DNA of 28,650 nt, from the IMG/VR virus record IMGVR_UViG_3300045940_000156, positions 1 through 28,650 of that record. One strand, given 5' to 3'. A program made the translations under genes and the position numbers. The first letter of the stretch is position 1; each line of letters starts with the position of its first letter. The notes under the pieces are model-generated. The model was not told the origin of the DNA, searched no databases, and was given only the letters and a program-made list of their open reading frames with translations. The stretch comes from a virus. Positions 1,726 to 20,251 of the stretch are shown here, one piece after another.

Positions 1726-3420
1726 TCAGAGCAACGCGGGTTGTGGGTCTGTCCCTTTCTGACGCCGTCCAGCCTGGGGAAAGGTCACGGAGGGAGCGTA
1801 GCGCGGATACTGCACCGGTTTGCCTTGGAGCAACTCGGCAATGGTCAGGAGCTGGAGGCGTGGAAACTGCTGCTGCGGAAAATCTGTCGGGACGTAGAAA
1901 CCCGCGGCGGCTGCTTCCTGGCGCATGGGCTTCGTCGGCTCGTTGAGGGTCACCAAGACCCCGATGGCCGCTTGCTCCCGCTGCAACACTCCGGCCAGGT
2001 CGCGCACATAGGAGGCATTGACGTGGCCGCTTTTGACCTGGACCACGATGCGCTTGGGCTTCCCGCTCTGGTCATCGCGAAAGAGGATTTCCCCATCGAC
2101 CCCGCGATCCGCGCCCTTTTTCTTGTCCTGTGCCGGGCGGGCCTCGATCAGGTCGAGCGCCCACCATTCAAACTGGTAGCGATTGTGCTGTGCCAGAGCC
2201 TGGGCACTGGCCACGTCCTTGGGGACACCGATCACCTCATACGGGGCGAGGTCCTTGGGAAAGGTGGTCTCCAACCGGTGTTTCATGATGGTCATGGCGA
2301 TATGGGTGATATCGATTCCAATCCAGCGCCGGTTGAGGCGCTCGGAGACGGCAATCGCCGTGCCACAGCCGCAAAAGGGGTCGAGCACCACGTCACCCTC
2401 GTTGCTGCTGGCTTTGATGATGCGCTCCAAGAGCGTCTCGGGTTTCTGCGTTGGATAGCCCATACGCTCTTTGTCTTTGGCGGAAAGCGGGGCGATGTCG
2501 TTGATCATGTCTTGGATAAGCATGCCTTCCATGTCATCCAGATACCGCTTGAATCCTGGCACGCCGCCTTGCTTTTCCGGCCAATAGACTCGTCCCATCT
2601 GGTCCAAAGATGCCAAAGCCTCCAGGGGAGATTTGGGGAGGTTCTCAAGACCGGGTATGTTCCGTGGAATAGCCCAGTGTCTCCCCTTTGCGGTAGGATC
2701 ACATCCTTTCCACGGCAATCCAGACTCACCACTGCGTGTTCCAGCCCCTGTCAAATCGCCGACCCTGAATCGCCGCCCATCACGGTCTTTATAGCGATAA
2801 AAGGTCTCAAGGTATTTTGGGTCATATTCCTGATGGACTCTATTCCATGTAAAACTTTCAGAGCCGGTATAGAACAAAATGATGTCATGGATTGGTCCCC
2901 ATCGTTTCGCGGCATTATGGGCACTCGTGCGCTTCCAGACGATTTCGTTCTGGAAGTGCATCGGGCCAAAGATAGCGTCCATCACCATCTTTAAGTAATG
3001 ACTGGCGGTCGGATCACAATGCAGATACAAGCTCCCAGTCGACTTCAGCACCCGGTGCAGTTCCACAAGCCGGGGTGTCATCATGGTGAGATAGGCCAGC
3101 ATGTCCGTATTCCCCAGGCACTCCCGGAGAGCTGAGAGCAGTTTCGCCACTTTGGCTGGCCCCCGCGTGACGACATCCCAATAGGTCTGCTCGGATTCCT
3201 GGCCCCAGTGCCAGGTATCGTCAAACGCGGTAATTTGCGCTGCGGACTTCTCGCCGCTGTGTTCGCCGAAGAGCACATTGTACGTGGCGTTGGAGTTGAA
3301 CGGCGGGTCGAGATAAATCAGATCGACGCTGTCGTCAGCAATGTGCGAGCGGAGAATCTGTAAGTTATCCCCAAAATAGAGCGTGTTGGTCCATGCGGAC
3401 GGGGGCTGTGTGGCTTTCAT
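1726..3420 (-). CDS. DNA N6-adenine/N4-cytosine methyltransferase fused to an Mrr-like PD-(D/E)XK nuclease domain
   Basis: This 564-residue protein opens with a beta-class amino-methyltransferase: catalytic motif IV DPPF at 38-41, GYPTQKP at 321-327 and the AdoMet-binding motif DPFCGCGT at 347-354. That order (IV before I) matches type III Mod and related enzymes. After about residue 415 a second domain shows D442 in DRGVDGE, then VVQVKSG with Q461 and K463. This is the D...QxK signature of Mrr-type restriction endonuclease folds. One chain may therefore both methylate and cut, as in type IIG-like enzymes, or the nuclease-like domain may only bind DNA. The ATG overlaps the stop of the upstream HIRAN gene by 4 nt (ATGA). 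Target sequence unknown. Confidence 0.85.
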   Translation of the reverse strand: MKATQPPSAWTNTLYFGDNLQILRSHIADDSVDLIYLDPPFNSNATYNVLFGEHSGEKSAAQITAFDDTWHWGQESEQTYWDVVTRGPAKVAKLLSALRECLGNTDMLAYLTMMTPRLVELHRVLKSTGSLYLHCDPTASHYLKMVMDAIFGPMHFQNEIVWKRTSAHNAAKRWGPIHDIILFYTGSESFTWNRVHQEYDPKYLETFYRYKDRDGRRFRVGDLTGAGTRSGESGLPWKGCDPTAKGRHWAIPRNIPGLENLPKSPLEALASLDQMGRVYWPEKQGGVPGFKRYLDDMEGMLIQDMINDIAPLSAKDKERMGYPTQKPETLLERIIKASSNEGDVVLDPFCGCGTAIAVSERLNRRWIGIDITHIAMTIMKHRLETTFPKDLAPYEVIGVPKDVASAQALAQHNRYQFEWWALDLIEARPAQDKKKGADRGVDGEILFRDDQSGKPKRIVVQVKSGHVNASYVRDLAGVLQREQAAIGVLVTLNEPTKPMRQEAAAAGFYVPTDFPQQQFPRLQLLTIAELLQGKPVQYPRYAPSVTFPQAGRRQKGTDPQPALL

Positions 3421-4350: not shown

Positions 4351-4692
4351 ATGCCCTGGCGTCCGCCCAGCCATCGTGCGCGCCCCCGCTCGCGAAAGCA
4401 GGCAGATGCGCAGTACAATGCCGAACGACGCGCCGCGCATGGTCCTGATCCCCGCAGCACCGCCCGCTGGCAACGGCTGCGCCGCTGGATGCTCCACCAC
4501 TTCCCCTGGTGTATGGACCCGTACGGTATGCACGTCCAGCACGGCGCTCAGGTACTGGCCACCGAGGTCGATCATCGCGTCGGCGTCCGGGTCAACCCGG
4601 CGCTGGCCTTTGAGCCGAGCAACTTGCAGACCCTGTGTCATGCCTGTCATGCGCGCAAGAGCGGGGAAGAACGGCGGGGTGTCCACGCATGA
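4351..4692 (+). CDS. Phage HNH endonuclease (terminase-associated)
   Basis: This 113-residue HNH nuclease has a basic N-terminus, then STARWQRLRRWMLHHFPWC (about 36-54), the catalytic VDH at 73-75 and the closing NLQTLCHACHARKS (about 91-104), whose Cys pair holds the structural metal. Only one of the usual two upstream metal cysteines (C54) is obvious. Small HNH proteins directly upstream of the terminase genes are common in HK97-like phages, where they work with the terminase to cut or pack DNA. AGGAG at 4338-4342 supports the ATG. The stop codon overlaps the next gene start (ATGA at 4689-4692). Confidence 0.85.
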   Translation: MPWRPPSHRARPRSRKQADAQYNAERRAAHGPDPRSTARWQRLRRWMLHHFPWCMDPYGMHVQHGAQVLATEVDHRVGVRVNPALAFEPSNLQTLCHACHARKSGEERRGVHA

Positions 4693-4994
4693 GTCATCGC
4701 ACGTGTGTGGCGCAGTATCTGAGCGATCCGACGACGAGACAGCGCTACGTTGTCCTCGATGAGATGTTCTGTCGCTTGCTGACTGAATGGCTTGTAGCAC
4801 AAGACACGGTACTCACCTGGGAGCATCTCCCGACGTGGCCAGGATGTACACTGGATGAGTATCTGACCCTCACGGCGGTGCTCGAACGCCTGGCACAGCA
4901 CGTCGGGTATCCCCTGACACCTGGGGAGAGCATCTTGCCGTTGTTGCAACGCGTGGCAGGTCGCTTGCAGCAGGAGCGTGACGCAATGCCCTGA
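4689..4994 (+). CDS. Hypothetical protein between HNH and small terminase
   Basis: This 101-residue protein is predicted mostly helical, with aliphatic- and Gln/Arg-rich stretches near the C-terminus (LLQRVAGRLQQERDAMP). No catalytic motif or membrane segment is visible. The frame is open from 4635, but the ATG at 4689 forms an ATGA overlap with the HNH stop and is the natural start. Its position between the HNH nuclease and terminase genes suggests a packaging or regulatory accessory role, though nothing in the sequence proves it. I do not recognise the family. Confidence 0.6.
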   Translation: MSHRTCVAQYLSDPTTRQRYVVLDEMFCRLLTEWLVAQDTVLTWEHLPTWPGCTLDEYLTLTAVLERLAQHVGYPLTPGESILPLLQRVAGRLQQERDAMP

Positions 4995-5147
4995 GATCCT
5001 GATGATCGGTTGCTCCCCGAGGGGGGGGGTGAATTCCTAGGACCTGCCGCCTATAGAACGACGCGCCAGTCACGCGTATTTTTTCACGGGTTTTGTGCGC
5101 GTTTTTTGGGCCGTGTCTCTCGCACGAACCCCTTGAGGATCCACACG
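4995..5147 (+). other. Intergenic stretch before the small terminase, with a G9 run
   Basis: About 150 bp without a supported gene. It contains an uninterrupted run of nine G at 5021-5029 and two short T-runs (about 5080 and 5102). This is the only sizeable gap in the packaging module, so it is the obvious place to look for a cos or pac site. I see no diagnostic sequence for either. Confidence 0.3.
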
Positions 5148-5639
5148 ATGGGCAAACGGGGACCGCTGCCCACGCCGACAAAAGTCCTGCGGATGCGCGG
5201 CTCCTGGCGGGCCAAAACCCGGCCACCGGAGCCGGGCGCACCAGCGGCCGAGAAACCACCCTGCCCGGCCTGGCTCGATGCCGACGCGCGCAAGGTCTGG
5301 CGGGCGCTCATGCCTCAGCTCGCCCGTCTGGGGATGCTGACGCGTCTTGATCAACACGCGCTTGCTCGGTACTGTACGCTGTGGGTCCGCTGGCGCAAGA
5401 TGGAAACGTTGCTCGCGGAGAAAGGCGAACTCGTCATCAGTTATACCGAGGAAGGAGCGGTCGCGGGAGTGCACGTCACGCCGTATGTGGCGATTGCGAG
5501 TACCCTGGCCGATAAATTGTTGCGGCTTGAACAGCACTTTGGCATGACGCCAAGCGCACGGGCCGCTCTCCATCTGGAGTTGCCCGATCCCCATGCCATC
5601 CCGAACGACCCGAAAGCCAAATTCTTCCGCCAGGCGTAA
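5148..5639 (+). CDS. terS: Terminase small subunit, P27 family
   Basis: This 163-residue protein begins MGKRGPLPTPTKVLRMRGSW, the typical basic opening of P27-type small terminases (a GRRPKPT-like start followed by a loose basic linker). A helical core follows, with PAWLDADARKVWRALMPQL and a middle region of YCTLWVRWRKMETLL. The C-terminus ends in an acidic/basic tail (PNDPKAKFFRQA) thought to engage the large subunit. The small subunit recognises phage DNA and stimulates packaging. ATG 5148 is chosen over an in-frame start at 5010, because the family consensus starts here and GAGG precedes it. The gene overlaps the large-subunit gene by 47 nt. Confidence 0.85.
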   Translation: MGKRGPLPTPTKVLRMRGSWRAKTRPPEPGAPAAEKPPCPAWLDADARKVWRALMPQLARLGMLTRLDQHALARYCTLWVRWRKMETLLAEKGELVISYTEEGAVAGVHVTPYVAIASTLADKLLRLEQHFGMTPSARAALHLELPDPHAIPNDPKAKFFRQA

Positions 5640-7329
5640 GCCGCTCCCCAAAACCTGGCAGACGCTGCTGCGGCAGCTCCCCGGGTATGACCCGCTTGCC
5701 ACCGCGGGCGATGCCTGGTTTGACCCCGACCTCGCCACGAAGATGCTTGACTTCTTCCCGACCTGCCTCCAGCACATCGAAGGGGCGGTTGCCGGGCAGC
5801 CCTTCCACCTCGAATGGTGGCAACAGGCGATTGTCGCCAATCTGTTTGGGTGGCAACGCCTGGATGAGCAAGGACGACAGGTGCGTCGCTATCGAGAGCT
5901 GTTTCTCTACGTGCCCCGGAAGAACGGCAAAACGCCCCTCTGTGCGGCTATCGGGGTGTTGATTCTGTTCTGTGATGACGAGATAGGCCAGCAAAACTAC
6001 ATTGGCGCCGGCGACCGGGAACAGGCGGGGAAGCTCTTCCGCTACGCCAAGGGCATGGTAGAACGGGAGCCCGAGCTGGCGAAGCGCTGCCGGATCTACG
6101 GCGGCAATGCTACGGCGGGGCAATCGCGCTCCATCGTGATCGAGGAGGAGAGTAGTTTCCTGCGCATCATTGCGGCGGATGCCGAGACCGCGCATGGGGA
6201 CACGACCCATGTAGCCATTATCGATGAGCTGCACGTGCAACCGAACCGCAACTTCTTTGATACGGTGCGCACCTCGTTTGCATCGCTGAACCGTCGCCAG
6301 CCGCTGTTTCTCCAGCTCACCACGGCCGACTACGACCGCCAGAGTATCTGCAATGAACAGTACCGTCTGGCGTGTCGGGTGCGCGATGGGGAGATTGAGC
6401 GCCCGGACCTCTTGCCGGTCATCTACGAAGCCCCAAGAATCTGGCATGGCGTTGAACTCGACTACACCGATCCGGCGGTGTACGGCAACGAGGACCTCTG
6501 GTCTCTGGCCAATCCCAACCTCGATGTCAGCGTGTCACGGGCCTATTTGCGGAGCGAGTGTCAGCGGACGCAGGACATTCCGGGCTACCTGCCCACGTTC
6601 TTACGCTTGCACCTGAACGTGCGGACCCAACAGGTCTCCATGTGGCTGGATCTGCAGAAGTGGGACGCGAGTGCCGGGGTGGTTCTCCCCGAGGATCTCG
6701 CCGGGCGGGCGTGCTGGGCTGGGCTCGATCTCGGGGCCACGTCGGACCTCACCAGTCTGTGTTTGCTCTTCCCCGAAGACGAGGGAACCTACACAGCGCT
6801 GTGGGTCAACTGGGTCCCGGAGGAGACGGCGAAGAAGCGCGAGCGGCGGGGCGATCCGGTCTACATCGAGGCGCGGCAACGCGGGGAGCTCCTGACGACC
6901 GAGGGTGATGAGACCGATTACAGCGTGATTCGGGCGCAGATCAACGACCTGGCCGAGATGTATAGTCTCCAGGAAATCGCTGTCGATCGGTTGTTTCAAG
7001 GGGTGGAGTTCTGCCAGCATCTGGTGAGCGACGGTTTCACCGTGGTGCCCTTCGGCCAGGGCTTCTTGTCGATGGCCGCTCCAACACAGGAGCTGGAACG
7101 GCTGGTGAATCGCGGCAGTTTGCACCATGGGGGCAACAAGCTGGTGCGCTGGACGGCAGGGAATTGCGTTGTGCGCCGGGATGCCGCGGGGAATATGAAG
7201 CCGGACAAGGAAAAGAGCCCCGATAAGATTGACCCGATAGTGGCGGTGATTATGGCTCTGGGCCGGTGTATGGTGCGGGAGGAAAAAGGTCTCAGTGTGT
7301 ATGAGACACGAGGATTGATGAGTATATGA
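5593..7329 (+). CDS. terL: Terminase large subunit (HK97/P27-associated type)
   Basis: This 578-residue packaging motor has an N-terminal ATPase with a Walker A-like VPRKNGKT at about 107-114 and Walker B VAIIDE at about 207-212 (glutamate 212 catalytic). The C-terminal RNase H-like nuclease has its first metal Asp in GLDLGATSD (about D379) and a last Asp in DPIVAVIMAL (about D547). The length is normal for the family. It translocates DNA into the prohead and cuts concatemers. The first ATG at 5593 lies inside the small-terminase gene without a clear Shine-Dalgarno, so the exact start is uncertain by a few codons. The stop overlaps the next ATG (ATGA). Confidence 0.93.
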   Translation: MPSRTTRKPNSSARRKPLPKTWQTLLRQLPGYDPLATAGDAWFDPDLATKMLDFFPTCLQHIEGAVAGQPFHLEWWQQAIVANLFGWQRLDEQGRQVRRYRELFLYVPRKNGKTPLCAAIGVLILFCDDEIGQQNYIGAGDREQAGKLFRYAKGMVEREPELAKRCRIYGGNATAGQSRSIVIEEESSFLRIIAADAETAHGDTTHVAIIDELHVQPNRNFFDTVRTSFASLNRRQPLFLQLTTADYDRQSICNEQYRLACRVRDGEIERPDLLPVIYEAPRIWHGVELDYTDPAVYGNEDLWSLANPNLDVSVSRAYLRSECQRTQDIPGYLPTFLRLHLNVRTQQVSMWLDLQKWDASAGVVLPEDLAGRACWAGLDLGATSDLTSLCLLFPEDEGTYTALWVNWVPEETAKKRERRGDPVYIEARQRGELLTTEGDETDYSVIRAQINDLAEMYSLQEIAVDRLFQGVEFCQHLVSDGFTVVPFGQGFLSMAAPTQELERLVNRGSLHHGGNKLVRWTAGNCVVRRDAAGNMKPDKEKSPDKIDPIVAVIMALGRCMVREEKGLSVYETRGLMSI

Positions 7330-14520: not shown

Positions 14521-15636
14521 ATGGTGCTAGAAAGACATCTGGTTGATCGCATCGAAATGTCGCTTTTTCGTCGCGAAGCTGTCTATGGACAGGGAGTGTC
14601 GCCCTACGACGCTGCAGGCGTGTGCCAGATGACCGATTTTGACGACGCGTCGCCGCATGTCACATGGGACGATACATTGCAAGCCAACAACGATGTCATC
14701 ACGGGCAAGGAATTTCCCACGCATCAAGAAATCCCGCGCCAGTCGTTTGGCATGACGTATACCGAGCCGCGTTGCAAGCCCAACACGATCGCGGGCTTGC
14801 TGGGCTTGACGATGGGCAGTGTGTTTGCGTCGCAACGCGACGGTAGTCGCAACGCGTATCGTCACGCGCTGCGACTAGGGGGCGCCACAACGCTGCCCTC
14901 GATCGCGGTGCATGTATCGTACGATCGCGCCACAATCGAGACGGGCTTTCGCTACTATGGCGTCAAGTGTAGTTCGTTGACGCTGTCCAACAATGGCCCA
15001 TACTGGCAACTCGCGGCAACGCTCATCGGCTCTGGTCGACGCGTCAACGATACGCCCAACGCGACGATTACGCCCCCTGTGGCAGAAAACTGGGTGCGCT
15101 GGGGCGATACGCGCTTTTTTATGCGTCCGCTGACGTCTGGCGTCATTGTGCCGCCTACAGCGCCAACGCAGCGCGCTATGAACTTGTCTGGCGGCGCGAC
15201 AACGGGCGCTATCGAGATCTCGCCCTATATGCGCAGCTTCACCGTCACGCTCAACAACAATCTCGCGGCTGAGTCGGGTTATCGTCCCTGGTCTGGCGCG
15301 TATCGTGCCAATTTTCACGGCACGCGTCGCGAGATCACGTCAGAAATCACGTTTGACGTCGACGATGCGTATGAAGCGCGCTATCTCGACAACTATTTCA
15401 AGCAATACAACATCGCGCTAGAAGTCGACTGTGGCAGCGTCGACGTGATCGTGGCAGGGGGCGTGTATCGCTGGGGCTTTCAACTCTTGTTTCCCGCGCT
15501 GCGCTTAACACGCGTTGCACGAGGACAGCAAGACATGCTCGACAATATTACCTACAGCGCGATCGCGCTCGACGATCGCACCAACGCGCCTATGTATGCG
15601 TGGATCTACAATCAACGTCCGCGCTATCTGGGCTAG
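14521..15636 (+). CDS. Major tail tube protein
   Basis: This 371-residue, beta-rich protein has a regular strand pattern and duplicated halves. YYGVKCSSLTLSNNGPYWQL near residue 145 and YMRSFTVTLNNNLAAESGY near 237 are the paired strands of the tube fold, where CSSLTLS-type segments are conserved in phage tail tube proteins. It lies between the terminator-like gene and the tail chaperone, as expected. It is longer than a lambda gpV core, so it may carry an extra domain or be a fused duplication of the fold. GAGGACGCGTT precedes ATG. Confidence 0.75.
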   Translation: MVLERHLVDRIEMSLFRREAVYGQGVSPYDAAGVCQMTDFDDASPHVTWDDTLQANNDVITGKEFPTHQEIPRQSFGMTYTEPRCKPNTIAGLLGLTMGSVFASQRDGSRNAYRHALRLGGATTLPSIAVHVSYDRATIETGFRYYGVKCSSLTLSNNGPYWQLAATLIGSGRRVNDTPNATITPPVAENWVRWGDTRFFMRPLTSGVIVPPTAPTQRAMNLSGGATTGAIEISPYMRSFTVTLNNNLAAESGYRPWSGAYRANFHGTRREITSEITFDVDDAYEARYLDNYFKQYNIALEVDCGSVDVIVAGGVYRWGFQLLFPALRLTRVARGQQDMLDNITYSAIALDDRTNAPMYAWIYNQRPRYLG

Positions 15637-15640
15637 TGCT

Positions 15641-16231
15641 ATGGCAGAGTCGTTCGTCAGTATACAGCTCGTCAACGCCGATGCGGTGAAAAAGCACTTG
15701 CGCGAGCATGGCGCAACGTTGCGTCCTCGCATTGCGACGATCATGCGCGAGACGATGCAAAAAGCTGTCACGCATGGACGCACACACGAGTTGTCCGGCG
15801 GCGCAGGCCAATTGCATGTCCGTACGGGTCGATTGCGGCGCAGCTTTCGCTTTCGTGTGCGTCGACGTCAGACAGGCGTCACGGGGCAGCTTGGTTTTCT
15901 TGGTCGAGGCGTGGGCTATGCGTGGGTCCAGGAATATGGCGCGACGATACGTCCGAAAAATGCACGCTATCTCATCGTGCCACAAGCGGGCGCGTTGACG
16001 CGGACGGGACGCTTGCGAGCGCTCGCAGGTCGACGCCAGCGTGGACAGACGTATGTGCGAGGACGCGTCGTCTATGAACGACGCGGACGTGTCAGTGTGC
16101 CGTTGTTCCTTCTCACGCGTCAAGTTGTCGTGCCAGCACGACCAACGCTCGCCCCCACATGGCAACGCTTCCGACCACAGCTCATGACGCGTCTACGCGA
16201 TGATATGTTGAATCCCAGCGTGAAAGGGTGA
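15641..16231 (+). CDS. HK97 gp10-like / minor tail (neck) protein
   Basis: This 196-residue, very Arg-rich protein carries HVRTGRLRRSF near residue 61 and YAWVQEYGATIRPKNARYL near 93. These are the signatures of HK97 gp10-like virion morphogenesis proteins (RTGxLRxS and Y-x-x-x-x-E-x-G). ATG 15641 lies 4 nt after the tail-tube stop; an in-frame start further up (15515) would run deep inside the tube gene and is rejected. It sits after the tube gene, whereas gp10-like genes usually precede it. In lambda terms it would correspond best to gpZ. Confidence 0.72.
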   Translation: MAESFVSIQLVNADAVKKHLREHGATLRPRIATIMRETMQKAVTHGRTHELSGGAGQLHVRTGRLRRSFRFRVRRRQTGVTGQLGFLGRGVGYAWVQEYGATIRPKNARYLIVPQAGALTRTGRLRALAGRRQRGQTYVRGRVVYERRGRVSVPLFLLTRQVVVPARPTLAPTWQRFRPQLMTRLRDDMLNPSVKG

Positions 16232-16235
16232 TGCT

Positions 16236-16814
16236 ATGGCGTCCTCGCTCGATGACTTCCGCCAGCGCGCTCGCAAAACGATCGTGCTTCCAAGCGGTTT
16301 GAGCGTCACGGTGCACTTTTGTCACATGATCGATCTTATTGGACGCGTTGACTTGCCTGTGCCAAGCGTCTCGACCATGGGCGATCTCAGCTTGCGCGAG
16401 ACGTACCAGTATCATCGCGACTTGTTTGACGCCATGATCGTCGCGGCGTGTGTCGCGCCACGTTTTGCGCCCCGTGGAACGCCAGAGGACGTCGAGCGCG
16501 TTGCGATCGAGGATCTAGAGGAAAACGACTATTGCGAGCTGGGCAAAGCGATCTCGCATCATTCCGGTTTCAATCCAGAGGTGGCCGCGTTGCTCGATCG
16601 CTTTCGTACACAGTTTGGACGCACGAGCAGTGAAGCAGATAGCGCAGACGTTTCACGTCCTGCCGCATCAAGTCCTCCAGACGACGCCCGCCCAGTTTTA
16701 TCTGAATTATTTGATCATGATGCTTCCCGACCAAGCGCCAGCGTCGCTGTCGATGCCCCCGCAAGCGCGGACAGCGACAACGCCCAGCTTGACACACGCC
16801 TTGCGCATGCATGA
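16236..16814 (+). CDS. Tail assembly chaperone (gpG-like)
   Basis: This 192-residue protein starts with VLPSGLSVTVHFCHMIDLIGRV, a strand-loop typical of tail assembly chaperones that precede the tape measure. A conserved helical block around DYCELGKAISHHSGFNPEVA follows. After about residue 125 it changes to low-complexity Ser/Asp/Ala/Pro sequence that looks unfolded. In the same place the +1 frame encodes a folded-looking sequence (see the overlapping entry). The chaperone wraps the tape measure during tail assembly and is absent from the virion. The last bases overlap the region just before the tape-measure start. Confidence 0.7.
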   Translation: MASSLDDFRQRARKTIVLPSGLSVTVHFCHMIDLIGRVDLPVPSVSTMGDLSLRETYQYHRDLFDAMIVAACVAPRFAPRGTPEDVERVAIEDLEENDYCELGKAISHHSGFNPEVAALLDRFRTQFGRTSSEADSADVSRPAASSPPDDARPVLSELFDHDASRPSASVAVDAPASADSDNAQLDTRLAHA

Positions 16815-16845
16815 GGACGTAAGCAATGGCCGAGCGCGGAATTGA
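16615..16845 (+). CDS. Putative frameshift extension of the tail assembly chaperone (gpT-like)
   Basis: In the frame one base ahead of the chaperone gene, an open stretch encodes LDARAVKQIAQTFHVLPHQV then LQTTPAQFYLNYLIMMLPDQ and ends at a TGA at 16843-16845. The helical look, and the HVLPHQVLQ/PAQFYL pattern, are like the C-terminal parts made by frameshifting in lambda-type G/GT genes. The shift from the main frame would be +1 or -2, near CAGTTTGGA (16611-16619). There is no independent start other than a TTG, so it should be read as a second product, or as evidence of a frameshift mutation in the gene. Confidence 0.35.
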   Translation: MDARAVKQIAQTFHVLPHQVLQTTPAQFYLNYLIMMLPDQAPASLSMPPQARTATTPSLTHALRMHEDVSNGRARN

Positions 16846-19800
16846 TATCCTCGTCCAAGTTCGCGATCAAGCCACGAGCGCGCTGAAAAGCATCGAGGGC
16901 GCTGTGTCGCAGTTCGGCGGGCGTGTCGACAAAGTCGCTGGCACCATGGGCAATCTGTCCAGTGTCTTTCGTGGCAGCATGATCGGTCTGGCGTCTGTGG
17001 CGGGCGCGCAGGGACTGGGACAGGTCCTGCAAAACGTGGTCGACGTTGGCTCGCAAATGCAAAGCTTGCGGACGACCATGACTGTTGTTGAGGGCAGCAA
17101 TCGCGCTGCGGCAGCGTCGTTTGACTTTGTCCGCGAGACAGCGAACCGACTGGGCTTTGATACGTCGACATTGGCGCAGCAATATACACGTCTCAGCGCT
17201 GCCAGTCAGGGCACGGCGCTGGCAGGCCAGCAAACGCGAGATATTTTCCTGGCGATCACGACAGCGGGCCGGACCCTTGGCTTGTCGAGCGATGCGCTTG
17301 GCGGCGCGCTTACCGCGGTCGAGCAAATTATCTCCAAGGGCACTGTCAGCGCGGAAGAACTTCGCGGACAGCTTGGCGAGCGCTTGCCAGGCGCGTTCCA
17401 GATTGCAGCCAGAGCCATGGGCGTAACGACGCAAGAACTTGGCAAGATGCTGGAACAAGGCCAGGTCCTCGCCAATGATTTTCTGCCAAAATTCGCCGCG
17501 CAACTTCAGAAAGAGCTAGGCGGGGGCGCGGAAGCGGCGGCCAACACTGCGGCTGTCGCGTTCACACGCTTTCAAAACAGTCTCAAGGAGATTGCTGACA
17601 GAGTCGCGCAGTCTGGCTTGCTGGAATACTTGGCGAAAGCTGCAGGCTATGCGGTCAACGTCTCAGAAGCGTTGTTAAAGCTTACTGGGGCGCAGAAAGC
17701 CTACAACCAGTCTGTTGCTGAGTGGAAAGACCTCACCAGAGGCCAACCCTTGAACGACTTGGCACGCCAAGCGGAAGCATTGCGCACGACCATCAAACAA
17801 ACGCAAGAATACATTGACAATCTCATCAAACGACGCGACGAAGCGCAGAAGCGCGTTGAGACGGGCTGGCTCATTACTGACGCCGATCGCAACTATGTGC
17901 AGCGCTTGAATAATGAGATCACGCGACTTACGACACAAGTTGACGACAATCGCAAAGCGTTACAAAAACTGGAAGGGGAAGCCAGAACACTCAGCGAGAC
18001 GATGAGCGCAGGCGATAAAGGTCTTGCGGTGAGCATCGAGCAGTATGGCGCGACGATCGCTGCGCAAGAAAAGCGTGTGCAAGAGTTCATAAGCAAGACC
18101 AACGAGTTGTTTGCAGCGCGAACCCGGGAAACTGAAAAGCTGCAAGCGGCCAACAAAGCGATGGGACGCGAGACAGCGCCAGAGGAACTCGTCAAGCTAC
18201 AGCAAAAGTATGTCCAGGACTTGCAAAAACTGGTGATACAGTATGGCGACGTGGTCGAGAAACGCAAAGACTCGCCGGAAGTGCAACGCATACGCGAGGA
18301 AGTCAAAGAACTCGACGCGTTGTTGAAAGCGAAAGAAAAGCAAGAGGAGATCGACAAGCAACGCAAAGAAGATCAACGCCAGCTTGACGACGAGATGAAG
18401 CGGCGCACGAAAGAAGCGGCGGACGAGGAACGACGCTTGTACGAGACGCAATTACGGCGACGCGAGGCCTTGGAAGCACAGCGCTTGGAGCTGGCCGAGG
18501 ACAAAGCGGCGGCAGAAGCGTTCATCGACTCGCGTGAACGCATGAGCGCCGCGGAACGCGAAGCGGCCAACGCCAAGCTGCCCACGATACAAGCGCTGCG
18601 CGATGAGATCGCCGCATTGCAGACAGTGAACAAGCTGCGCGAGCAAGACAAGGAAAAGCGCGAGACAGAAGAAAAGAAAGCAGAAGGCGAGCGCAAGCAA
18701 CGTGCAGAAGAACTCGACACGATCGAGAAAGAGATTGCAGGACGCATCACCAGTGTCACACAAGCCACACAAGCGCAAGTGCCTGTCGAGGAAACCTTGT
18801 TGCGCTTGCGTCTGGAAAGCTTGACGACCGACCAGCAACGCATTGATGCGATCATGCAACAGTATCGTCTGTCTGAGTCCATGACCGACGAGTTGCAAAA
18901 ACAACAGCGGCTTGACGCGGAACGCCAGCGTGACATGCAAGACTTCTTGGAACGCATGCGCGAACCCGTGGTGCCCGAACCCCGTACGCGGCGCGAGGCC
19001 TACCAACAAGAGATCGATCGCTTGCGCGATCGTGGGGCCCCAGAAAGCGAGCTGGCCGAAGCATCACGCTTGGCAAGCTTGCGCGTTGAAGCTGAAACGC
19101 TCAACGACGTCATGGAGGGCATGCGCGACACAGCGGAGGATTTGGGCGACACGCTCGAAAAGGGCTTGCTCGACGTCATGGAAGGCGCTGCACTGTCAGG
19201 CAAGAACTTGAGCGAGATGTTGCAAGACATGGGCAAGGGCTTGATCAAGCTGTTTGGAAAAGAAGTGATCGAGCTTGGCCTAAAACCCTTGCGCAGCTTT
19301 CTCAATGAAATGGCGAAAGAACTGGCGCAAAGCGAGTTGATCAAGACGATTGTCAAGTTTGGTCTGAGTCTCCTGGGTGGTGCTGTCGGTGGCGGGGTCA
19401 ATCTTCCTGGCGGCACGACCGAGCTGGCTGTTGCCAGCGGTGGCAGTCCATTACTAAGTGCACACGGCGGTATTTTTGGCGTTGGCGCGCCATCGCCCGT
19501 ATCGACAAGCGGACTGGCAAGCGGCGGCGTTGTCGCGTCGCCCAGTGTGCGCATTGTGGGCGAAGCAACGCCAGAAGCCGTCGTGCCCTTAACGTCCGCT
19601 GGGGTGACACGCTTCACGACGGGCTTGTTGTCCGCGAACCCGCAGCTTTTCTCGACCAAGCGTCTGGAGGACACCATGCGTACGGGGATGCACACGCTTG
19701 CTGCCAGCGCTGCCCGTCGCGACGAGACAGGACATCTCGTCGAGACGATGCGTACGGGCATGCACACGCTTGCTGCCAGCGCTGCCCGTCGCGACGAGAC

Positions 19801-20251
19801 AGGACATCTCGTCGAGACGATGCGTACGGGGATGCACACGCTTGCTGTCAGCGTTGCCAGTCGGGACAAGACCGGGCAACTTGTCCAGGCGATGCGTCTG
19901 GGACAGCAAGCGCTTGCTGCCAGCGTTGCCCGTCGCGACGAGACAGGACATCTCGTGCATACGATGCGTCTGGGCATGCACACGCTCGCTGCCAGCGTTG
20001 CCAGTCGGGGCGAGACAGCACCCCTCGTCATGCAATCGAGTGACGCTGGCGTATCGACCGAACAACTCCAGAGCACCGTACGCGACGCGATCGCGCAACG
20101 CCCGCCCGTCGAGTTGACGATTGTGCTCAACAATCCAGTCGACCCGCGTCGTATGGGTTTGCAACCCGATGAAGTCGTGCAAGTCGTGGGCAAGAATATC
20201 CAGGAGGATGGACTACTACGACGTGTGATCGTCAAGAACACGAGGAATTAA
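16826..20251 (+). CDS. Tail tape measure protein
   Basis: This 1,141-residue protein sets tail length. Residues 1-230 match the lambda-type tape-measure N-terminal domain (RTTMTVVEGSNRAAAAS, then LSAASQGT, GALTAVEQIISKG and ELRGQLGERLPGA). About 300-740 is Gln/Glu/Lys/Arg-rich coiled coil. About 800-860 has amphipathic and hydrophobic segments (LIKTIVKFGLSLLGG). About 880-930 has the ASGGVV...VRIVGEATPEAVVPL block typical of tape-measure C-termini. Residues 951-1070 form a five-copy, 24-residue repeat. At about 1.5 angstrom per residue the tail would be near 170 nm (inference from the family rule). GAGGACGTAAGCA precedes ATG. Confidence 0.92.
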   Translation: MAERGIDILVQVRDQATSALKSIEGAVSQFGGRVDKVAGTMGNLSSVFRGSMIGLASVAGAQGLGQVLQNVVDVGSQMQSLRTTMTVVEGSNRAAAASFDFVRETANRLGFDTSTLAQQYTRLSAASQGTALAGQQTRDIFLAITTAGRTLGLSSDALGGALTAVEQIISKGTVSAEELRGQLGERLPGAFQIAARAMGVTTQELGKMLEQGQVLANDFLPKFAAQLQKELGGGAEAAANTAAVAFTRFQNSLKEIADRVAQSGLLEYLAKAAGYAVNVSEALLKLTGAQKAYNQSVAEWKDLTRGQPLNDLARQAEALRTTIKQTQEYIDNLIKRRDEAQKRVETGWLITDADRNYVQRLNNEITRLTTQVDDNRKALQKLEGEARTLSETMSAGDKGLAVSIEQYGATIAAQEKRVQEFISKTNELFAARTRETEKLQAANKAMGRETAPEELVKLQQKYVQDLQKLVIQYGDVVEKRKDSPEVQRIREEVKELDALLKAKEKQEEIDKQRKEDQRQLDDEMKRRTKEAADEERRLYETQLRRREALEAQRLELAEDKAAAEAFIDSRERMSAAEREAANAKLPTIQALRDEIAALQTVNKLREQDKEKRETEEKKAEGERKQRAEELDTIEKEIAGRITSVTQATQAQVPVEETLLRLRLESLTTDQQRIDAIMQQYRLSESMTDELQKQQRLDAERQRDMQDFLERMREPVVPEPRTRREAYQQEIDRLRDRGAPESELAEASRLASLRVEAETLNDVMEGMRDTAEDLGDTLEKGLLDVMEGAALSGKNLSEMLQDMGKGLIKLFGKEVIELGLKPLRSFLNEMAKELAQSELIKTIVKFGLSLLGGAVGGGVNLPGGTTELAVASGGSPLLSAHGGIFGVGAPSPVSTSGLASGGVVASPSVRIVGEATPEAVVPLTSAGVTRFTTGLLSANPQLFSTKRLEDTMRTGMHTLAASAARRDETGHLVETMRTGMHTLAASAARRDETGHLVETMRTGMHTLAVSVASRDKTGQLVQAMRLGQQALAASVARRDETGHLVHTMRLGMHTLAASVASRGETAPLVMQSSDAGVSTEQLQSTVRDAIAQRPPVELTIVLNNPVDPRRMGLQPDEVVQVVGKNIQEDGLLRRVIVKNTRN
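19676..20035 (+). repeat. Five tandem 72-bp coding repeats in the tape measure gene
   Basis: Units begin at 19676, 19748, 19820, 19892 and 19964, each exactly 72 bp, so the frame is kept. The consensus reads MRxGMHTLAASxARRDETGH followed by LVxT. Units 1 and 2 differ at a single base by eye (GGG versus GGC), which implies a recent duplication. Units 3-5 are more divergent. They lie between the VGEATPEAVVPL block and the last C-terminal domain. Confidence 0.9.

Follow-up and report, generated by a model that had tools for sequence, protein, structure and literature searches.

Tailed phages use −1, −2 or +1 frameshifts in their tail chaperone genes, and the shift in HSTV-2 is very likely +1 (PMC5009743). 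In lambda, one gene gives two products, gpG and the longer gpGT, which is made via a frameshift, and both act on the tape measure, while Mu makes its gpGT by a −2 shift (PMC5009743, PMC3498833). Tail or capsid genes of the Listeria phages PSA, A118 and A500 are also described as shifting by +1, at CCC_UGA or CCC_UCC (PMC5009743). The closest known chaperones to the one described here are those of the HF1-group haloviruses (Hafunaviridae, including HSTV-2, HF1, Serpecor1, HRTV-25, HRTV-27 and others), for which TTT-CGC was proposed as a +1 site in 2020 (PMC7230728). UUU_CGN is the +1 site of influenza A PA-X and of the plant amalgaviruses (PMC3498833, PMC5052127), and UUU_Ynn is reported to be especially +1-prone in bacteria (PMC5009743).

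The DNA examined here is a virus record of 28,650 bases from IMG/VR, and the whole of it is referred to as the window. One gene in the window appears to yield two tail assembly chaperones through a programmed +1 ribosomal frameshift at UUU_CGU, a reading to which we assign a probability of roughly 0.8. As in lambda, one gene would give two products of which the longer arises by a shift, but lambda shifts −1 and the site proposed here is a +1 site, and family searches found no sequence match between the two. The Listeria phages share the +1 direction; their sites differ and lie in structural proteins rather than chaperones (PMC5009743). The P-site slip at UUU_CGN proposed here is that of PA-X and the amalgaviruses, which are found in RNA viruses of eukaryotes and in other genes, so that the likeness is one of mechanism only. 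The initial annotation had called a +1 shift unusual in such a gene, and this is right only in part, since +1 is among the modes that tailed phages use and PRFect counts 350 forward sites among 2718 annotated, experimentally untested ones (PMC10885494).

Gene order, relatives and identity of the gene

The record encodes terminase, an HK97-type capsid protein, a tail tube protein, a neck protein, the chaperone, a tape measure protein and a tip protein, and we infer that the virus is siphovirus-like; the host of the group is presumably bacterial. On the plus strand, the tail tube gene (14521–15636; Phage_tube_2, Pfam PF18906, E 5.7e-10) is followed by a gene for a Neck1-like neck or tail completion protein (15641–16231; phrog_5, E 2.3e-7), by the gpG-like 0-frame chaperone ORF of 192 aa (16236–16814) and by the tape measure gene (16826–20251; phrog_2335, E 1.1e-64). 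A second plus-strand frame is open from 16519, where the first codon past an in-frame stop begins, to the end of its own stop at 16845. The +1 extension shares its last 20 nt with the beginning of the tape measure gene. At the left end of the window, a minus-strand gene for an adenine DNA methyltransferase (1726–3420, a CcrM-like match) was found near an ORF for an HtrA-like protease (586–1644). A 24-residue repeat was also seen, which could alter tail length.

Scans of IMG/VR found the same module in L002, in L003, L004 and L005, and in L085, making four distinct lineages with the window. L003, L004 and L005, three contigs whose IMG/VR sample numbers differ, are identical over 1,200 nt. Tail tube proteins served to rank the relatives. 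Identity to the window in L002, L004 and L085, respectively, was 59, 70 and 55% for the tail tube protein, 40, 37 and 36% for the 0-frame chaperone and 46, 46 and 42% for the +1 segment. The sampling is narrow, because the IMG/VR sample numbers of all the relatives neighbour each other. No relative was found when IMG/VR was searched with the window chaperone alone, or in scans of genome contigs with the tail tube alignment and with the +1 segment. Among 50,697 phage records, tblastn returned no match to the fused protein at an E limit of 1 and none to the tail tube protein at a limit of 1e-5.

In the window, L002 and L004 the chaperone gene sits between the tail tube and tape measure genes, directly upstream of the latter, and judged by this position it is a tail chaperone. 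In L085 the gene comes after the tail tube gene and is followed by minus-strand ORFs (4640–5861), at the place where the other lineages have the tape measure gene directly after the chaperone; the tape measure could be mapped only inexactly in that contig. The location of the neck protein gene varies. It is found between the tail tube and chaperone genes in the window and in L004, and in L002 (4871–5365) and, by eye, in L085 (1350–2012) it precedes the tail tube gene.

Neither the 0-frame and +1 proteins nor the fused protein had a usable family match in Pfam (best DUF7391, E 0.052, in one of the four members), NCBIfam (no match) or PHROGs (best E 0.013, for the +1 part of one of the four members). 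A PDB sequence search with alignment A2, one of six (A1–A6) that comprise three lineages with L085 absent, gave 0 matches. Foldseek with the fused model (mean pLDDT 49) returned 114 matches, 0 of them at E 0.001 or below.

An AlphaFold2 model of the 0-frame product, made from a 3-row alignment, had a mean pLDDT of 55 and predicts, at low confidence, a helix, two strands and further helices. The initial annotation had noted that this frame turns unfolded-looking after about residue 125. In agreement with this, the last predicted helix ends at residue 127, and pLDDT falls to 31–35 in blocks from residue 131 onward in the window protein. When the model was compared with 229 chains, the best was 3KLU (YqbN; Z 4.4, rmsd 3.5, 84 residues aligned), which we take to be a tail assembly chaperone, and the next was 7xdi (Z 3.9). 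A Z of 4.4 between a predicted model and YqbN can reflect a common arrangement only.

Conservation in two reading frames

In all four lineages the second frame lies at +1 relative to the 0-frame ORF. The openness of this frame says little by itself, because in simulations that fixed the 0-frame peptide and used each phage's own codon usage the chance of it staying open was 0.44–0.64. Similarity between the lineages was more informative. Over the 40 codons past the site, all six lineage pairs were most similar in the +1 frame, with 19–27 identities and a BLOSUM62 sum of 99–147, against 12–16 identities and 44–65 in frame 0 and 12–21 identities and −2 to 93 in the +2 frame. In the 20 codons ahead of the site, all six pairs were most similar in frame 0.

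The substitution pattern flips in the same way. Across the four aligned lineages, codon positions 1, 2 and 3 vary at 82, 67 and 108 of the 119 codons ahead of the site, and at 31, 23 and 16 of the 40 past it, so that positions 1 and 2 are spared in the first part and position 3 in the second. The best change point was 6 codons past TTT (next best 5, 18, 7 and 4), with a log-likelihood gain of 23.0 that was matched by none of 1000 column shuffles (shuffle maximum 16.1). The frame change in the tail chaperone gene is therefore real and conserved. It also agrees with the claim in the initial annotation that the frame one base ahead encodes a gpT-like segment reaching to 16,845.

An indel mutation, an assembly error or a pseudogene would look identical in a single genome, and the first two had been raised as possibilities in the initial annotation. 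Both are excluded, because the two-frame layout is kept in four lineages on separate contigs, and the arrangement is thus real biology rather than a sequencing error. The identity of L003, L004 and L005 over their shared stretch, under different sample numbers, and the selection pattern visible in both frames also argue against any reading of this kind.

The 0-frame continues past TTT for 69 codons and a stop in the window (16605–16814), and for 57, 71 and 67 codons in the relatives. In the window this tail is Ser/Asp/Ala/Pro-rich and of low predicted order. Given the +1 peptide, the chance of the tail staying open for as long as it does was 0.37 in the window, 0.39 in L002, 0.62 in L004 and 0.28 in L085, which taken together for the four lineages is a weak hint only.

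Position and direction of the proposed shift

The shift cannot lie much earlier than TTT, because the +1 frame opens just 17 nt ahead of it in L004 and L085. The earliest +1 residues that are invariant in all four lineages are the sixth and seventh after TTT, and the interval left for the shift is about a dozen codons. The proposed site is TTT_CGT in the window (16602–16607, codons 123–124), and at the same aligned column TTT_CGC is found in L002 (7551), L004 (4771) and L085 (4370). The initial annotation had correctly seen a change of frame, and had placed it near 16,611–16,619, slightly downstream of this site. Further in-frame TTT_CGN sequences were found early in the chaperone gene of L002 (7197), L004 (4423) and L085 (4022), and align to codon 8 of the window gene, where the sequence is TTC CGC.

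Within the 17 columns around the site, TTT is the sole codon for which +1 re-pairing is possible in all four lineages. Only one of 473 comparison columns (357 from the tail tube gene and 116 from the chaperone gene ahead of the site, 8 of which also fall within the 17) had such a codon in all four, a TTT_CC in the tail tube gene, and about 0.04 such columns are therefore expected per 17-column stretch. In the window, L002 and L004, Phe is preferentially encoded by TTT, and in the window 41 of 118 TTT codons (16 ORFs) are followed by C; a looser ORF set contained 58 TTT_C and 20 TTT_CG pairs in 8235 codons. Two of the six invariant Phe columns outside the site are also TTT throughout, and conservation of TTT at a single Phe would not be surprising on its own. 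As TTT is favoured and TTT_C pairs are common, the site is assigned by its position and by exclusion, and not by codon choice alone. It is highly unlikely that the +1 shift occurs at another codon in the interval. The best change points do lie 4–7 codons past TTT, with one at 18, but the change point marks where the +1 constraint turns strong and may fall after the shift, and the other columns offer no codon that re-pairs at +1 in every lineage.

Slippage by −2 would lead into the same frame, as it does for the gpGT of Mu (PMC5009743, PMC3498833), and four haloviral records carry the annotation 'putative programmed translational -2 frameshift'. For the present group this is very unlikely. Among the codons up to 9 away from the site in the window, L002 and L004, none fully re-pairs at −2, whereas a move from UUU to UUC at +1 re-pairs fully. 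Where the initial annotation had offered '+1 or -2', the direction is best read as +1.

The +1 segment might instead be a separate small protein begun within the chaperone gene, by internal initiation or coupling and with no fusion. There are +1-frame starts past the site in the window (TTG at 16615, GTG at 16630), L002 and L004, and these three share a GTG at one common column. In L085, however, the 120 nt past TTT hold no start codon in the +1 frame, the only candidate being a TTG 8 nt before it, and this makes a separate T protein the weaker reading. No start is common to the four lineages, and inspection by eye of the upstream 18-mers revealed no common Shine-Dalgarno-like sequence. We consider initiation within the gene unlikely.

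Under the favoured +1 frameshift, the majority of ribosomes would translate 16236–16814 to give the 192-aa protein, in the role of gpG. A minority, holding codon 123 (UUU) in the P site while CGU awaits decoding in the A site, would move one base forward as tRNA-Phe re-pairs from UUU to UUC. These ribosomes would resume at GUA (16606) and end at the stop at 16843–16845, having added the gpT-like extension of 79 codons (16606–16845, stop included), which is conserved in the +1 frame in the four lineages. The 202-aa fused product would carry this C-terminal segment in the role of gpT, and would form a link between tape measure and tail tube. The ribosome shift itself, its efficiency and the gpG and gpGT roles are what we infer from the locus. 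A low shift efficiency would fit the role of a chaperone by analogy with lambda, in which the two chaperone products are made at 30:1 (PMC5009743).

A rare A-site codon has been proposed to aid the slip at UUU_CGN, although the role of this codon is described as uncertain (PMC3498833), and none is present at the chaperone site. CGC is the most-used Arg codon in the window, L002 and L004, and CGT accounts for 99 of the 476 Arg codons in the window. Since CGC is so frequent and TTT is the favoured Phe codon, a hungry codon does not drive the slip. Downstream RNA structure did not exceed chance in any of the four lineages (z −0.94, −1.43, −0.11 and +0.36), and no Shine-Dalgarno-like element near the site was common to the four by eye. 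A short purine run directly ahead of TTT, also judged by eye, is present in L002 and L085 and absent in the window and L004. The sequence GAGGT was found about 20 nt upstream of TTT in all four lineages (16578–16582 in the window), where it encodes a conserved Glu-Val. Its distance from TTT exceeds that of the prfB element, and it is probably merely coding.

Recurrence of the motif in tail chaperone genes

The chaperones of the HF1 group resemble that of the window in that a pair of ORFs, of which the second is in the +1 frame, precedes the tape measure gene; they differ in belonging to archaeal myoviruses. Seven haloviral records from four genera were taken from the 53 phage records with a match to the HSTV-2 chaperone. 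All seven contained one single in-frame TTT_C in the overlap, as TTT_CGC in six and TTT_CGT in one. L096, L098, L099 and L100 are haloviral records annotated as −2, yet the one in-frame TTT_C of each overlap belongs to a TTT_CGN, as would suit a +1 shift. The 0-frame stop lies 2–7 codons past TTT in the HF1 group, compared with 57–71 in the window group. In comparisons of the two groups with hhalign, the two protein parts gave probabilities of 0.07% and 0.14%, from shallow alignments. As neither part has detectable similarity, two unrelated chaperone families appear to share this site, although with alignments of this depth a distant kinship of the two may exist.

A survey of frames upstream of the tape measure gene in more distant relatives (L001–L075) began with 75 loci and retained 48, after removal of 7 that were too short, 9 without an ORF pair and 11 duplicates. 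The second frame was at −1 in 30 of the 48, accompanied in 21 of the 30 by an in-frame X_XXY_YYZ heptamer; the other 18 loci were called +1. At L001–L003, which belong to the family itself, the heuristic picked an incorrect pair of ORFs, and only the −1 cases with a heptamer were used, as a contrast. Shifting by −1 at heptamers is common among more distant tape measure relatives (21 of 48 loci). Examined by eye, none of the 16 survey '+1' calls outside the family was a convincing +1 chaperone pair, and the real pair in L069 is at −1.

There is perhaps an even chance that UUU_CGN is a recurrent, independently evolved +1 site of tail chaperone genes, used in at least two families without detectable similarity, one in archaeal viruses and the other in a presumably bacterial siphovirus group. 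Such a site would function in the absence of a rare A-site codon, of a stop codon and of any evident structure downstream, and the haloviral records would be wrongly annotated as '-2'. In the window group the 0-frame is kept open alongside the +1 segment for 57–71 codons, and each of the two frames may have a function. A literature search for the motif together with chaperones or frameshifting returned only PMC7230728, within a coverage that leaves out most subscription journals.

Shifting by +1 in tail chaperones is already known or annotated, and the gene described here is a well-supported further case. It would provide a simple reporter target for the slip at UUU_CGN where there is no rare codon. 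Sites for +1 shifts within genes are 'notoriously difficult to spot' (PMC5009743), and the recurrence of the UUU_CGN motif across chaperone families is a useful hint. A second, apparently unrelated chaperone family with this motif would offer a concrete criterion by which to recognise fused chaperones otherwise annotated as a single gene with a junk tail.
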